A stretch of 64,000 nt of DNA, taken from the NCBI GenBank assembly GCA_015709575.1, contig CP054190.1, positions 3,470,616 through 3,534,615 of the forward strand, in the 5' to 3' direction. A model generated the notes under the pieces. It was not told the origin of the DNA. It made no database searches and saw nothing but the letters and a program-made list of their open reading frames with translations. Of the stretch, positions 37,216 through 43,772 are shown one piece after another. A program made the translations under genes and the position numbers. Numbering within the stretch: position 1 is the stretch's first letter; each line of letters starts with the position of its first letter. The DNA comes from Planctomycetia bacterium (GTDB lineage: Bacteria > Planctomycetota > Phycisphaerae > UBA1845 > Fen-1342).

Positions 37216-38262
37216 GTGCCCATGCCCGATGATCGCGAACACCTGCCCCCCGACGAAATCGCCGCGATACTGGGCGCATTCGGCGTCTCCGCCACCCAGA
37301 GCGTCCGCGAGCTGGCCCGCGGCTCGCGCCACTCTCCCAAGCTGCTGATCGAATCCTCACTCGGCCGGCTGGTGCTCAAGCGCCGCGCTGCCGGCCGCGA
37401 CAAGCCCGAGCGCGTCCGCCAGTCGCACCGCCTGATCGCCCGCCTGCGCGACTTCAACCTGCCCGCCCCGCGCGTGCTGCTCACCACCGGCGGCGCCTCC
37501 TTCGTCGAGCGCGACGGCCGGATCCACGAATTGATCGAGTTTCTCCCCGGCGAGGCCTACGACGGCTCCCTCTCGCGCACCACCGCCGCCGGCGAGATGC
37601 TCGCGCGCCTGCACGCGGCGCTGGCCGACCTGCCCGCCGACCCCGGCGCTTCGCGCGCCAGCTATCACGACCTCCGCGCCGTCCGCAACGGCCTCAACGC
37701 AATTCCGACCGTCACGTCCGGCCACGACTCCGTCGTCGGCCGCGAGGCCGAGCTGCTGGCCGCCACGCAATGGATGCACGAGCAGTATGACGCGGCCGCC
37801 GACGAGGTGAACGCGGCCGGATTCGCCGAGTGGAACGCCGCCTGGATACACGGCGACTGGCACCCCGGAAACCTGCTCTTTTCCGGCGGAGACGTCTGCG
37901 GAATCCTCGACCTCGATTCCGCCCGAATCGCGCCCGCCGTCATCGACCTCGCCAACGGCATGCTGCAATTCTCGATCCTGCGCGGCGGCGGCGACCCCCT
38001 GGCATGGCCGGCCTATTTCGACGAAGCCCGCATGCGCCGCTTCCTGCTCGGCTACCAGGGCGTCACTCCCGTGCCCGCCGTGCAGCGGCGCGTGCTGCCG
38101 GCCCTGATGGTCGAATCCCTGATCGCCGAATCAGTCGTGCCGATCGCCGCCACCGGCTCCTTCGGCCGCATGCCCGGCTACGGCGTGCTGATGATGGTCG
38201 CCCGCAAGGCCCGTTGGATCCGCGAAAACGAATCCGACCTCCGCCGCTGGATCATGGACTGA
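37216..38262 (+). CDS. APH-family phosphotransferase (homoserine kinase/CHK-like)
   Basis: A 348-residue soluble kinase-like protein. It has the catalytic loop HGDWHPGNLL (residues 212-221) and the metal-binding GILDLDSARIAP, the APH/choline kinase pattern, and RLVLKRR with the nucleotide-binding Lys near the N-terminus. The substrate cannot be predicted. The start is GTG at 37216, with an in-frame ATG at 37222. Confidence 0.8.
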   Translation: MPMPDDREHLPPDEIAAILGAFGVSATQSVRELARGSRHSPKLLIESSLGRLVLKRRAAGRDKPERVRQSHRLIARLRDFNLPAPRVLLTTGGASFVERDGRIHELIEFLPGEAYDGSLSRTTAAGEMLARLHAALADLPADPGASRASYHDLRAVRNGLNAIPTVTSGHDSVVGREAELLAATQWMHEQYDAAADEVNAAGFAEWNAAWIHGDWHPGNLLFSGGDVCGILDLDSARIAPAVIDLANGMLQFSILRGGGDPLAWPAYFDEARMRRFLLGYQGVTPVPAVQRRVLPALMVESLIAESVVPIAATGSFGRMPGYGVLMMVARKARWIRENESDLRRWIMD

Positions 38263-38823
38263 TCCTGTCAGTCATCCCGGGCATGCAGCGGTTTCAGAAA
38301 CGCTTCGCCCTGCCGCCGCTGATTCGTGGACTTCACCGCGCGCCACTGCTGACTCAGACATCCCGCCATGTGCCACCGCTCTCTCAGCGATCCATCCGTG
38401 TGCCACCGCTCTTGAGCTGTGACGTTCCCCGATTGCGCGCGCCGATGTCGAAGCGTCGCGCCGTGCCACCGCTCTTGAGCCGTGACGTTCCCCGATTGCA
38501 CGCGCCGATGTCGAAGCGTCGCGCCGTGCCACCGCTCTTGAGCTTGCTGTTACCCACATCTTCACCCCGACAGGGGTGTCGGGATGTAGCCACGGGTGAA
38601 GCGCAGCCCGGCGACAGCCGGGCGAAGCGAAACCCGTGGAATCCTGCGCGCACTCTCTGCCCCGAAGGGGCAGAGGAGGTCTTTCGTCCTATTCTCCCTG
38701 TGAGTGACAAATGCAGCAGCATTCGCCCCATCCGCAAGTGATCCAATGAACACGGAATACCCGTCACTCGGGCTGGGCCGCGCAACCCCGACGGAACCCA
38801 TGAGAATTCGCCGGCGAACACGC
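38263..38823. repeat. Intergenic region with 68-bp duplication and a palindrome
   Basis: No gene is supported. A 68-base unit containing GCCACCGCTCTTGAGC and a GACGTTCCCCGATTG block occurs twice plus a partial copy between about 38398 and 38550. A CCACGGGT-type hairpin with a different insert lies at 38587-38640. Confidence 0.7.
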
Positions 38824-39945
38824 TCAATTCAATCCGCCCGCCCAGCGCGCAAAACGATCCGCGTCCGCCGGGCTGACCGAAGGCGGCGTCCGCGACAGCG
38901 CCTCGACCAGGTCGCTCATCGCGATCGGCCGCGCCTCGCTTCCCCGCTGCACCGACTCCAGGAAAACCGCCGACGCCGCCCGCGCGCACACCGCCGCGAC
39001 GTCCGCGCCGCTGTAGCCTTCGCTCACCTCCACCAGCGCCGCGAAATCCACGTCGTCCGCCAGCGGCCGCTTCGACAGGTGAATCTCAAACAACCGGAAT
39101 CGCGCCGGCGGATCCGGCAGCGGGATCAGGATTTTCACGTCAAACCGCCCCGGCCGCATCATGGCTGGGTCCAGCGTCCACGGCTCATTCGTCGCCCCGA
39201 GAAACAGCAGCGCCCGCTCCCCCTTTCGCTCAAACCCGTCGATCTCCTGCAGGATCTGCGGCACCACCCGCTGCATCACGCTGCTGTCCACGTCGCGCCG
39301 CGCCGGCACCAGCGCCTCGATCTCGTCAATAAAAATCACGCACCGAGCCTCGCCCCGCGCCGCGTCAAACAGCTTGCGGACGTTCTGCTCCGCCTCGCCC
39401 ACCCACTTGCTCATCAGTTGCGCCGGCGTGATGACGAACATCGTCGCGTCCAGTTCCGTCGCCACCGCCCGCGCCATCATCGTCTTGCCCGTCCCCGGCG
39501 GCCCGTAGAGCAGCACGCCGCCCCCCGCGCCCACCCCATAGTGCCGCGCCAGCTCCGGATGCGCAAAGGGGTACAGCATCTTCAGCCGAAGCTCCTGCTT
39601 CACGTCATCCAGCCCCGCGATGTCGTCAAAGCGGATGTTCGGCTTCTCGCGAACGATCCAGTCCGACGCATCCGCCCCCTGCGATTCATCCCCCTCCCGC
39701 GCGCGGTCGCGCGGCCGCACGCCCCCCGCCCCGCGCCGGTCGCATTCCTTCGCCAGCTCCAGCAGCTCGCGGGCATACTGCTCCTGCTCCGTGCGGCGCT
39801 TCGCGTCCGGGTTCGACGCGGCGATTTCAATCATGCAATCCGCCGCCTGCAGCAGGAACGGCCGAGCCGTCGCCGCGTCCCCTGCGCGCAGCGCCGCCAG
39901 CCCCTTGTCCTTCAGCCGCACGAACGTCGCAAACGAAACCGCCAT
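38824..39945 (-). CDS. VPS4/katanin-like AAA ATPase with MIT-like N-terminus
   Basis: A 373-residue classic AAA protein: Walker A GPPGTGKT (148-155), Walker B VIFIDEIEAL, sensor LLFLGATNEP, MMRPGRFD with arginine finger, and a C-terminal helical lid. The order and sequence (FDDIAGLDDVKQELRLKMLYP) resemble the VPS4/katanin/fidgetin group. The first 70 residues form a three-helix candidate MIT-type domain (LKDKGLAALRAGDAATARPF), as in VPS4. The ATG at 39945 fits; an in-frame start lies 16 codons upstream. A membrane-remodelling role is inference. Confidence 0.78.
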   Translation of the reverse strand: MAVSFATFVRLKDKGLAALRAGDAATARPFLLQAADCMIEIAASNPDAKRRTEQEQYARELLELAKECDRRGAGGVRPRDRAREGDESQGADASDWIVREKPNIRFDDIAGLDDVKQELRLKMLYPFAHPELARHYGVGAGGGVLLYGPPGTGKTMMARAVATELDATMFVITPAQLMSKWVGEAEQNVRKLFDAARGEARCVIFIDEIEALVPARRDVDSSVMQRVVPQILQEIDGFERKGERALLFLGATNEPWTLDPAMMRPGRFDVKILIPLPDPPARFRLFEIHLSKRPLADDVDFAALVEVSEGYSGADVAAVCARAASAVFLESVQRGSEARPIAMSDLVEALSRTPPSVSPADADRFARWAGGLN

Positions 39946-40102: not shown

Positions 40103-40618
40103 TCAGCGTCGCAGCCGACGCCGCTCGATCACCGGCAGCGGCCGGTGCGACGATGCCTGCGTCGAAGCGATCACCCGACCGCGCGGATCCGTCCGCCCGC
40201 CGGCCAGCGCCACCGCCGGCCGATGCGACCCCGCCGACCCCGACGCCGTCACCTCGCGGAACTGTCCGCCGCGGGCGATGCTCACGCCGTTGGCCGTCGA
40301 AACATCGCCGTCCCTCCCGATGTTCAGGTTGAACGTCGAGGCAATCGCCGGTCCGCGACCCGGCGCCACCGCCGTGCTCAGCGACAGCGCCACCCCGTTC
40401 TCATCCACCCCGACCGCAACGCCGCGGGCGACGTTTACCGGTCCCGTCGCCGAGCTGGTCCGCGCAAACCCGTGATCGCCGCTGTAGCGGGCGGTCGCCT
40501 GCGCCGAGCCGCCCGGACGGTTGTTCGCCGTCGCCGACGTGTGCGCGTCAGCGCCCAGCGCGTTGATCGGCAGCGAAAGGAGGGCCACGCACGCGAAAGT
40601 GATGCGGAAGGTCTTCAT
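40103..40618 (-). CDS. Secreted hypothetical protein, 171 aa
   Basis: A signal peptide (FACVALLSLPINALGA) precedes a low-complexity Gly/Ala/Ser/Asn-rich mature part with a short repetitive beta pattern (NVARGVAVGVDENGVALSLS), recalling extracellular fibre or adhesin-like proteins. No family is recognised. Confidence 0.55.
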   Translation of the reverse strand: MKTFRITFACVALLSLPINALGADAHTSATANNRPGGSAQATARYSGDHGFARTSSATGPVNVARGVAVGVDENGVALSLSTAVAPGRGPAIASTFNLNIGRDGDVSTANGVSIARGGQFREVTASGSAGSHRPAVALAGGRTDPRGRVIASTQASSHRPLPVIERRRLRR

Positions 40619-40838: not shown

Positions 40839-42137
40839 TCACTCAAACGCGATCGCCACCAGCGTACGGTCGTCCCGCGGCGGCAGACCTTCAGCGAAGC
40901 TGCGGATATCCGCCAGCACGCGGTCCACGATGCCCTGCGCTCCGCACGCGCACTGACGCAGCGATTCATCCAGTCGCTCCAGCCCGTAGATCGACCCGCC
41001 CCGGTTGAACGTCTCCGTGATCCCGTCGGTGTAGAGCAGCACTCGATCACCCGGCCGCAGCTCGATCGTCTGCTCCGCCAGCTCCGGCTCGCTGATGATC
41101 GCCAGCGGCAGGCCGTCCGTCATGGGCATGCCCTCGACTCGCCGATCCGGCGCCCGCACCACCCGCGGCGGGTCATGCCCCGCCATCGCATAGTGAATCG
41201 TGCGCGTCCGCGGATCGAGCACGCCATAAAACGCCGTGACGAAGTTCCGCAACTGCATCGTCTCGTAGAGCCGCTCGTTGAGCAGCCGCAGCACGCCCGC
41301 CGGCCCGCAGCCGCCCGCAGCGCAATAGTGCGGTGCGTGCAAAATCGCGTGCATCATCGCCATCACGACCGCCGCCGGCGGACCATGCCCGCTGACGTCC
41401 GCGATCATGATCCCCCACGTGCCGTCCGGTCGCGGAAAAAAGTCGTAGTAATCGCCGCCGGCGCTCGCGCTGGTTTCGTAGTGCGTCGCGACCGTGACGC
41501 CCGGGATCTCCGGCAGCTTCTGCGGCAGCAGGTCGCGCTGGATCTCTCCGACGATCCGCACCTCGCGATCCAGCGCCGCGTACGCCAGCTCCAGCTCGCG
41601 CGACAGCATCAATTGTGCCGTCGCCGTGCCCACCAGGTTCGCCGTCAGCGTCAGCGTCGCCAGCTCATCCGCCGTGAACGGCTCGTGCTCGCGCATCGCG
41701 ATCAGCATGTAGAGCGGCTCGCCGGAGTAGAAAATCGGCACGCCCGCGTAGTACGCCATCCCCGAGATGTGCTCCGACACCGCGTCATCCGCCGGAATTT
41801 CGCTCGAGTCAAACCGCACCGGAACTCCGGCGGTCATCAGCCGCAGCACCAGCGGCGACTCAATGGTCGGAATGCGGTCCGGCTCGGCCCACGGATCGAT
41901 CAGCTCCGCCCAGCGCGTGCTGCGCGTGATCTTCACCGCGCCGTCCCGCACGTTGCGACGACTGAAGCTCACCGCGTGCTCGTAGTTCACGACGAACCGC
42001 GCCCGCGAGCGATACGAATTCAGAAGTTCCGCCGGCCGGCGCTGAAGGCTCATCTCGCGCACCAGTGCGAGATACTCGCGAAGGCGCAGCTCGGCGGAAA
42101 GATCAGCGGGGGGCGCACTGGGTTGGATCATGGTCAT
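40839..42137 (-). CDS. GAF-like plus SpoIIE/PP2C-type serine phosphatase
   Basis: A 432-residue regulator. The N-terminal half is a GAF-like sensor domain; the C-terminal half is a SpoIIE-type PPM phosphatase with SASAGGDYYDFF, IADVSGHGPPAAVVMAMMH, LLYTDGITETF and PPRDDRT, which supply the metal-binding Asp residues. Such proteins usually act in partner-switching with anti-sigma/anti-anti-sigma factors; none is adjacent. Start ATG at 42137, with another ATG two codons later. Confidence 0.85.
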   Translation of the reverse strand: MTMIQPSAPPADLSAELRLREYLALVREMSLQRRPAELLNSYRSRARFVVNYEHAVSFSRRNVRDGAVKITRSTRWAELIDPWAEPDRIPTIESPLVLRLMTAGVPVRFDSSEIPADDAVSEHISGMAYYAGVPIFYSGEPLYMLIAMREHEPFTADELATLTLTANLVGTATAQLMLSRELELAYAALDREVRIVGEIQRDLLPQKLPEIPGVTVATHYETSASAGGDYYDFFPRPDGTWGIMIADVSGHGPPAAVVMAMMHAILHAPHYCAAGGCGPAGVLRLLNERLYETMQLRNFVTAFYGVLDPRTRTIHYAMAGHDPPRVVRAPDRRVEGMPMTDGLPLAIISEPELAEQTIELRPGDRVLLYTDGITETFNRGGSIYGLERLDESLRQCACGAQGIVDRVLADIRSFAEGLPPRDDRTLVAIAFE

Positions 42138-42305
42138 GGATTCTACGCTTGATACCGCCCCGCGGCGAAACTCAGTGCAACCACCCGACGAGGCTCGATA
42201 TCGTCCCGCTGCCCATCGAGTCATACGCTAGCGCGAGAATCCTTTCTATGCTGGTGCTCGCTGGTGCGAGAATCATCTTTTGCTGGTGCGAGAATCATCT
42301 TTATG

Positions 42306-42535
42306 CTGGTGCGAGAATCCTTTCTCGCACCCCGGTTGGTGGCTGCGCTGGTGCAAGAATCATCTTGTTACTGGTGCGAGAATCCTTTCTCGCACTCCGG
42401 TTGGTGGCTGCGCTGGTGCAAGAATCATCTTGTTACTGGTGCGAGAATCCTTTCTCGCACTCCGGTTGGTGGCTGCGCTGGTGCAAGAATCATCTTGTTA
42501 CTGGTGCGAGAATCCTTTCTCGCACCCCGTTGGGG
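42306..42535. repeat. 65-bp tandem repeats with GTGCGAGAA palindromes
   Basis: At least three 65-base units at 42306, 42371, 42436 and a partial at 42501, each carrying the inverted pair GGTGCGAGAA / TTCTCGCAC. Shorter related copies lie just upstream (42256-42305). Palindromes with other arms (GCGGGAT / ATCCCGC and GTGCGAGAT / ATCTCGCAC) follow at about 42555-42603. No gene is supported between 42138 and 43080. Confidence 0.85.
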
Positions 42536-42755
42536 GAAATCCTTTCCATCCTCAGCGGGATGGCAATCCCGCCCCACCGCGTGCGAGATGGGAATCTCGC
42601 ACGAGCGGTCTGGCACGAGCGACCCGTGACTGAAGTCACTGGCTACGACCGCCCGCCCTCCGGGCGAAAACCCCACCCGCGCCGCCCCTGCAACTCCTCT
42701 CGAGCAATGCATCAGCGCACGTCCACGCCTTGTGCCGATGCTCCTGAGCAGTGCC

Positions 42756-42916
42756 CTCTCTCCGCTCAATTCACCACCCTCTCTCCGCTCAATTCACCAC
42801 CCTCTCTCCGCTCAATTCACCACCCTCTCTCCGCTCAATTCACCACCCTCTCTCCGCTCAATTCACCACCCTCTCTCCGCTCAATTCACCACCCTCTCTC
42901 CGCTCAGTTCATCGCC
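42756..42916. repeat. Seven 23-bp tandem repeats
   Basis: Seven units of CTCTCTCCGCTCAATTCACC plus ACC, the last one degenerate. Units are contiguous with no spacers, so this is not a CRISPR array. The 23-base length breaks reading frames, so it is not coding. Confidence 0.9.
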
Positions 42917-43080
42917 CTCGTGCAGCATCTAATCGCACCGAAGGTGCATCCCAGCTTCAGCCCAGGGCAACGCCCTGGGTTATGCACACCGCCCCGGCTA
43001 TCGTGCCCATCGCACATGCAAGCCCTGAAAGGGCGCCCCAACCCCCCAACCGCGCCGCATCCGGCCCCAAGCGCGCACTT

Positions 43081-43299: not shown

Positions 43300-43437
43300 C
43301 ACACGTTCCTTTCTGATCGATGACGGATGCTCCGGATTGGTTACCCGGCCATCGGTTTTCCCTTCGCGACGACACGAGATCACATGCGCCCGCTGCGTGC
43401 GCCGAATCCAGTGGCACGTGAGCTTGCAATCGTCGGC

Positions 43438-43660
43438 ACCGTTCACCCCTGTCCCCGCACCATTCACCCCTGTCCCCGCACCGTTCACCCCTGTCCCCGC
43501 ACCGTTCACCCCGGTCCCCGCACCATTCACCCCTGTCCCCGCACCGTTCACCCCTGACCCCGCACCGTTCACCCCTGTCCCCGCACCATTCGCCCCGAAC
43601 CCACAACCGTTCACCCCTGACCCCGCACCATTCGCCCCGAACCCCGCACCGTTCGGCCCT
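43438..43660. repeat. About ten 21-bp tandem repeats
   Basis: Contiguous units of ACCRTTCACCCCTGTCCCCG plus C with variants toward the right. They lie between two phage-region genes. The 21-base period keeps an open frame in several directions, which gives long meaningless reading frames. Confidence 0.85.
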
Positions 43661-43772
43661 GAAAGGGCCGCGGGCTGTAGCCACGGGTGGAGTCGTCGCG
43701 CAGCGACGACGAAACCCGTGGATGGGGTTCGTTCATGATTCAAGCCCCGAAGGGGCGCAGGAAACAGGATCA

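Follow-up and report, generated by a model that had tools for sequence, protein, structure and literature searches.

What kind of AAA ATPase does this planctomycete locus encode, and does the enzyme have a partner of the ESCRT-III type? The locus lies in a stretch of 64,000 nucleotides from a Planctomycetia bacterium, referred to below as the window. Recent reviews assign the membrane-remodelling pair ESCRT-III/Vps4 to archaea and eukaryotes only, and describe bacteria as being without such systems. The initial annotation, made from the sequence of the window, had nevertheless read here a single AAA module of VPS4 type behind an MIT-like N-terminal domain, and had seen no ESCRT-III-like gene next to it.

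The features of the gene and its neighbours are collected in Table 1. Residues are counted from the ATG; the Pfam search was run on the 389-aa open frame, whose residue numbers are shifted by 16.

Table 1. Features of the ATPase gene and of the genes beside it (positions in the window)
Feature	Position	Strand	Basis or remark
CDS, Vps4-like ATPase (P0001)	38824..39945	-	373 aa + stop; ATG at 39945, stop ends 38824
MIT-like three-helix N-domain, residues 1-73	39727..39945	-	AlphaFold2, Foldseek, VIA-align, hhalign
Charged flexible linker, residues 74-96	39658..39726	-	pLDDT <50 for residues 73-96, full-length model
AAA core (Pfam AAA), residues 144-276	39118..39516	-	Pfam match
Walker A GPPGTGKT, residues 148-155	39481..39504	-	sequence
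Pore loop 1 K-W-V in SKWVGEAE, residues 180-182	39400..39408	-	sequence; alignment with human VPS4B
Walker B IFIDE, residues 204-208	39322..39336	-	sequence
AAA lid (AAA_lid_3), residues 298-337	38935..39054	-	Pfam match
Vps4_C-type C-terminal helix region, residues 338-368	38842..38934	-	Pfam, above cut-off
Phosphotransferase-like protein beside ATPase	37216-38262		read from window
Short protein beside ATPase	40103-40618		read from window
SpoIIE-type phosphatase-like protein near ATPase	40839-42224		read from window

The frame is a real gene rather than a chance one, since more than 80 of the 101 genomes of the order to which the window belongs contain a full-length ortholog, a single one each, at 55-71% identity. 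Orthologs at 45-54% identity are found in other planctomycetes and one, at 48%, in a Chloroflexi MAG, while relatives at about 40% occur in Clostridia. Pfam recognises the AAA core (E 1.3e-41) and AAA_lid_3, and the C-terminal helix scores 23.1 bits with Vps4_C, above the cut-off of 21.3. The NCBIfam models for CDC48 (255 bits), CdvC (NF041006, 233.5), PAN (232) and FtsH (192.6) all remain far under their cut-offs, and with 233.5 bits against the 650 set for NF041006 the protein is classed as Vps4-type and not as CdvC. With archaeal CdvC/Vps4 and eukaryotic VPS4 (ESCRT-IV) it shares the order MIT, linker, single AAA and Vps4_C helix, the tryptophan in pore loop 1 (SKWVGEAE, compared with SKWLGESE in Vps4) and the PW-LD motif; however, it keeps RPGRFD where Vps4 has RRRF. 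The alignment with human VPS4B spans linker, AAA and C-terminal helix and leaves a gap where the eukaryotic beta-domain sits, so that the ATPase is not classed as a eukaryotic-type Vps4. This insertion does not define the wider family, as it is also missing from the archaeal CdvC compared, with which no such gap appears. A fold search with the whole protein puts p97 first, a ranking that cannot separate AAA clades and was set aside. As a separate observation, the window holds intergenic tandem repeats at 42260-42533, 42754-42919, 43436-43661 and 38342-38543 (units of 22-65, 23, 21 and 30-63 bases; copies up to 97% identical), which in some frames translate to repetitive peptides.

The relationship of the AAA domain was examined by maximum likelihood on 61 AAA domains, a check that the initial annotation had proposed. 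The bacterial ATPases form one clade (support 100/99) inside a Vps4-type clade (99/97) that contains archaeal CdvC, human and yeast Vps4, spastin and a second planctomycete Vps4-like family. Outside it fall both CDC48 domains, the single-AAA haloarchaeal proteins and the FtsH-like protein of the same genome. By its sequence, the domain is thus placed in the Vps4-type (meiotic) clade and, together with the Vps4_C match, this bears out the reading of a single AAA module of VPS4 type. Another origin is conceivable. Outside the bacterial orthologs, the highest raw identity (about 45%) is to archaeal CDC48 D2 domains, and the ATPase might derive from a CDC48-D2-like AAA with an independent TPR- or MIT-like adaptor, serving as unfoldase for other clients beside coiled-coil neighbours unrelated to ESCRT-III. 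The unconstrained tree speaks against this, and constraining the bacterial clade to join CDC48 D2 lowers the log-likelihood by 25 units; with p-AU 0.066 that grouping is disfavoured, although not strictly rejected.

The N-terminal domain is relevant to the same question. AlphaFold2, given residues 1-74 and an alignment of bacterial relatives only, predicts three helices (5-20, 24-43 and 48-73) with a mean pLDDT of 94.6. In a Foldseek search of the PDB, MIT domains head the list, most of them with a TM of about 0.8: katanin p60 (the best single match), the chitin-synthase MIT, an archaeal Vps4 MIT, MITD1, and yeast and human Vps4. The E-values are weak (none <0.1), which is to be expected for a domain this short. 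By VIA-align, MIT chains reach Z around 12, and the TPR domain of AIP and SRP-related chains score nearly the same; values under about 13 may reflect an arrangement common among helical bundles, and the fold alone is therefore no proof of MIT. Profile comparison is more discriminating. Over the whole domain, hhalign gives E 8.6e-6 for MIT versus 0.012 for the consensus TPR; in the local comparison the MIT score is 30.8, the null averaging 12.8 +/- 2.9 and reaching at most 25.2. The match to the Chitin synthase 1 domain (2mpk), which we take to be an MIT domain, covers residues 13-69 (E 4.9e-5). The first two helices do resemble one TPR motif, as the CDC48-derived origin would allow, but TPR profiles match only about residues 13-38, and instead of tandem two-helix repeats the model shows one three-helix bundle. 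By predicted fold and full-length profile, we therefore regard the domain as a probable MIT domain. The Pfam MIT model finds no match in the ATPase of the window itself; searched over whole genomes, it has clostridial orthologs as top match in two genomes (20.6 and 18.0 bits, cut-off 30), and one acknowledged archaeal CdvC (L073) does no better (14.6 bits). The earlier claim of an MIT-like domain hence stands for the fold and the full-length profile, but not at the level of a Pfam match in the protein itself. Two side observations concern this region. In one planctomycete ortholog (L053), the N-terminus seems, from its sequence, to hold two tandem MIT-like domains; just upstream of the Chloroflexi ortholog (L067, 3439-3747) there is, by eye, a truncated second MIT-like N-terminus, separated from the ortholog by a PIN-like gene.

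A candidate partner came to light in Clostridia, where a protein of about 200 aa resembling CHMP2 is encoded directly upstream of the ATPase orthologs in three clusters (L068, L069 and L070). For two of these three proteins, Pfam Snf7 is the top family (E 2.8e-4 and 7.9e-3) and matches over nearly the whole model. A profile built from the three clostridial partners (A6) detects a single full-length match in each of 20 genomes out of 25. One of the 20 is the genome of the window, where the protein, here called ESC3A, is encoded at 60.3 kb on the same chromosome as the ATPase (E 6.7e-19). The absence of an ESCRT-III-like partner is thus correct within the window but not for the chromosome. In this genome, the Pfam models MIT, Snf7 and PspA_IM30 match nothing above cut-off, and ESC3A itself has no Pfam Snf7 match; the partner search suggested by the initial annotation succeeded with the A6 profile and not with the Pfam models. 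An apparent Snf7 match in the same genome (L165, E 1.0) was dropped, as it overlaps repeat-rich frames.

Is ESC3A an ESCRT-III protein? A search of PDB sequences with its profile found no ESCRT-III chain, and profile-profile comparison with nulls was therefore used. The alignment of 16 bacterial members was compared by hhalign with the PDB chain sequences of CHMP1B, CHMP2A and CHMP3, the last 14 residues of CHMP2A being added from outside these chains. The score is 55.0 (E 5.1e-8) over 154 colinear columns, whereas the reversed profile gives 14.1 and block-shuffles 13.7 +/- 2.4 with a maximum of 21.2, none of 150 being as good; as a scale, CHMP1/2/3 against Snf7/CHMP4 gives 33.6. One divergent planctomycete member has Snf7 as its top Pfam family (E 3.3e-4), and the Snf7 scores of three members all lie under Pfam's cut-off of 27.3 bits. 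With archaeal CdvB there is no profile match, the CHMPs themselves matching CdvB weakly (22.8). On these comparisons, ESC3A appears to be a homolog of the Snf7/CHMP proteins. It equals CHMP1/2/3 in length and, at its extreme C-terminus, carries an amphipathic helix, usually with the spacing of MIM1, which reads LRAE(L/I)xxLK in the order of the window and takes other forms elsewhere. Of 49 distinct tails, 40 show the spacing [LIVM]xxx[LI]xx[LIV], whereas shuffling gives a mean of 3.7; the tails are related, and the count is therefore not one of independent cases. The strict MIM1 consensus is present in 3 of the 49 (e.g., EDKVSSRLDSLR). ESC3A differs from its eukaryotic counterparts in its sub-threshold Snf7 score and in the MIM1 arginine, which is mostly replaced by Glu or Gly.

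ATPase and ESC3A occur together. With an enlarged profile (A8), ESC3A is detected in 85 of the 101 genomes of the order: 82 have both genes, 14 neither, 2 the ATPase alone and 3 ESC3A alone (Fisher p 1.5e-12). A sample of the phylum gives 32 with both, 3 with the ATPase alone, 22 with ESC3A alone and 237 with neither (p 6e-25). As genomes share descent, these p-values overstate independence, and the fact that the pair is conserved across divergent families weighs more. Of the 64 pairs listed, 60 share a contig; the two genes are no more than 3.5 kb apart in 56 and no more than 150 bp apart in 19. Many of the 22 genomes with ESC3A alone fall in one family (f36), two examples of which (L235 and L236) have a Vps4-like gene of the second type about 1 kb upstream of ESC3A, the only Vps4-like gene seen near it; the ESC3A tails of this family are without the MIM1 spacing.

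The usual gene order in the relatives is kinase, a 480-aa protein, a second coiled coil of about 200 aa (ESC3B), ESC3A, the ATPase and a protein of about 600 aa; the genes linked to ESC3A thus differ from those of eukaryotic ESCRT systems. In the genome of the window, the system is split over three loci: the kinase (Pkinase E 6e-33), the 480-aa protein and the second coiled coil are together at about 452-455 kb, ESC3A lies among unrelated genes, and the ATPase, at 3.51 Mb, has unrelated genes on both sides. This dispersal explains why no partner had been seen from the window. ESC3B is homologous to the C-terminal part of the 480-aa protein (score 64, null 15). We do not claim either as ESCRT-III, their merged score of 22.7 (null 11.1 +/- 1.6) being suggestive at most. 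By eye, the 480-507-aa protein (L229 7154-8674; about 453.2-454.7 kb in the genome of the window) has a winged-helix-like middle followed by a coiled coil, a layout that recalls CHMP7 or CdvB, with no Pfam match. In some planctomycetes (L220, L222, L223, L226, L227 and L237), the cluster also contains a second gene for a Vps4-like protein, along with more genes for coiled coils. This second family, with a helical N-domain of its own, was noted at L222 5574-6758, L223 8750-10015, L226 4851-6110, L235 5402-6646, L236 5097-6332 and L237 9231-10481. The planctomycete protein of about 600 aa was considered as an SPFH protein and rejected: it has no Pfam Band_7 match, and its hhalign score against clostridial SPFH is within the null maximum. 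In Clostridia, the L068 cluster does contain a clear SPFH/Band_7 protein (E 3.7e-14), and ESCRT-III-like and Vps4-like genes accompany a Band_7/SPFH-type protein at L068 3318-8635, L069 3139-10898 and L070 196-7948. The same clusters hold, by eye, a trypsin-like protein in L068 as well as large proteins that contain a TIR-like stretch; a role in stress or defence is one possible reading of them.

The computed domains, homology, gene linkage, co-occurrence and conserved C-terminal motif lead us to consider the gene very probably the Vps4-type ATPase of a bacterial ESCRT-III/Vps4-type system. Against this count the Snf7 and MIT scores below the Pfam cut-offs, the missing CdvB match, the replaced MIM1 arginine, the p-AU of the CDC48 grouping and the dispersal of the genes in this genome. 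The derivation from a CDC48-D2-like AAA is unlikely, as a co-occurring partner that matches CHMP1/2/3 would be unexpected for an unrelated coiled coil. Less probable still is a severing enzyme of the same AAA clade, like katanin or spastin, whose substrate would be a tubulin- or actin-like cytoskeletal filament and not ESCRT-III: katanin p60 as top fold match for the N-domain and the position of spastin in the tree agree with it, but what is conserved and linked is an ESCRT-III-like gene whose product has a MIM1-like tail, and inspection of the conserved neighbourhoods by eye revealed no tubulin-like gene. A conventional FtsH-like protease ATPase or proteasome-type unfoldase, suggested by the general AAA similarity behind the sub-threshold FtsH and PAN scores, is already disfavoured by tree and architecture and scarcely credible, given that the 373 aa end at the Vps4_C helix with neither protease domain nor HEXXH and that a distinct FtsH-like protein (L031), which carries HEAGH, is encoded in the genome and falls outside the Vps4-type clade.

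How the bacterial ESCRT-III/Vps4-type system may work can be proposed by analogy with established ESCRT biology. ESC3A would polymerise on the cytoplasmic side of a membrane, possibly with the two further coiled-coil proteins as co-subunits. The MIT-like domain of the ATPase would catch the amphipathic MIM1-like helix at the C-terminus of ESC3A, and the ATPase, assembled as a ring, would thread ESC3A subunits past its aromatic pore loop. Threading would remodel or disassemble the polymer, whereby the membrane would be bent, cut or repaired. On a bolder reading, which we hold to be an even matter, Planctomycetota and some Chloroflexi and Clostridia would possess a complete bacterial ESCRT machine of several subunits that cuts or shapes membranes, either an old bacterial branch or an early transfer. 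Its parts would be the MIT-Vps4, a CHMP1/2/3-type ESCRT-III with MIM-like tail, other coiled-coil subunits (among them one fused to what may be a winged-helix region), the kinase and sometimes a second Vps4.

As in CdvC/VPS4 systems, the ATPase gene is usually linked to an ESCRT-III-like gene; unlike CdvC/VPS4, the ATPase is bacterial and forms a separate, supported clade. PspA/Vipp1 are the known bacterial members of the ESCRT-III superfamily, through which a deep kinship with ESC3A is possible (PMC8281802). However, no profile signal links ESC3A to PspA/Vipp1 (15.9, null 15.8), and PspA_IM30 matches nothing in the genome of the window. VPS4-like AAA proteins in bacteria are described by Ravi et al. 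(2024; PMC11237479), with ACB74714.1 as example and snf7 reported as displaced by a TPR/6TM gene, so that the presence of a Vps4-like ATPase in a bacterium has some precedent. In contrast to that account, ESC3A co-occurs with the ATPase here and is usually linked to it, ACB74714.1 being compared by its description only. Among the papers searched, which include no preprints, none was found to describe a CHMP-like partner with MIM-like tail that is linked to the ATPase in Planctomycetota and Clostridia, and priority for a linked bacterial ESCRT-III/Vps4-type pair is uncertain.

A co-inherited, linked pair of MIT-AAA and CHMP-like protein in many planctomycetes contradicts the statement that bacteria lack such systems. 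The pair bears on the origin of the eukaryotic membrane-traffic machinery and, in the organisms that carry it, is a testable candidate for shaping the unusual membranes of planctomycetes.
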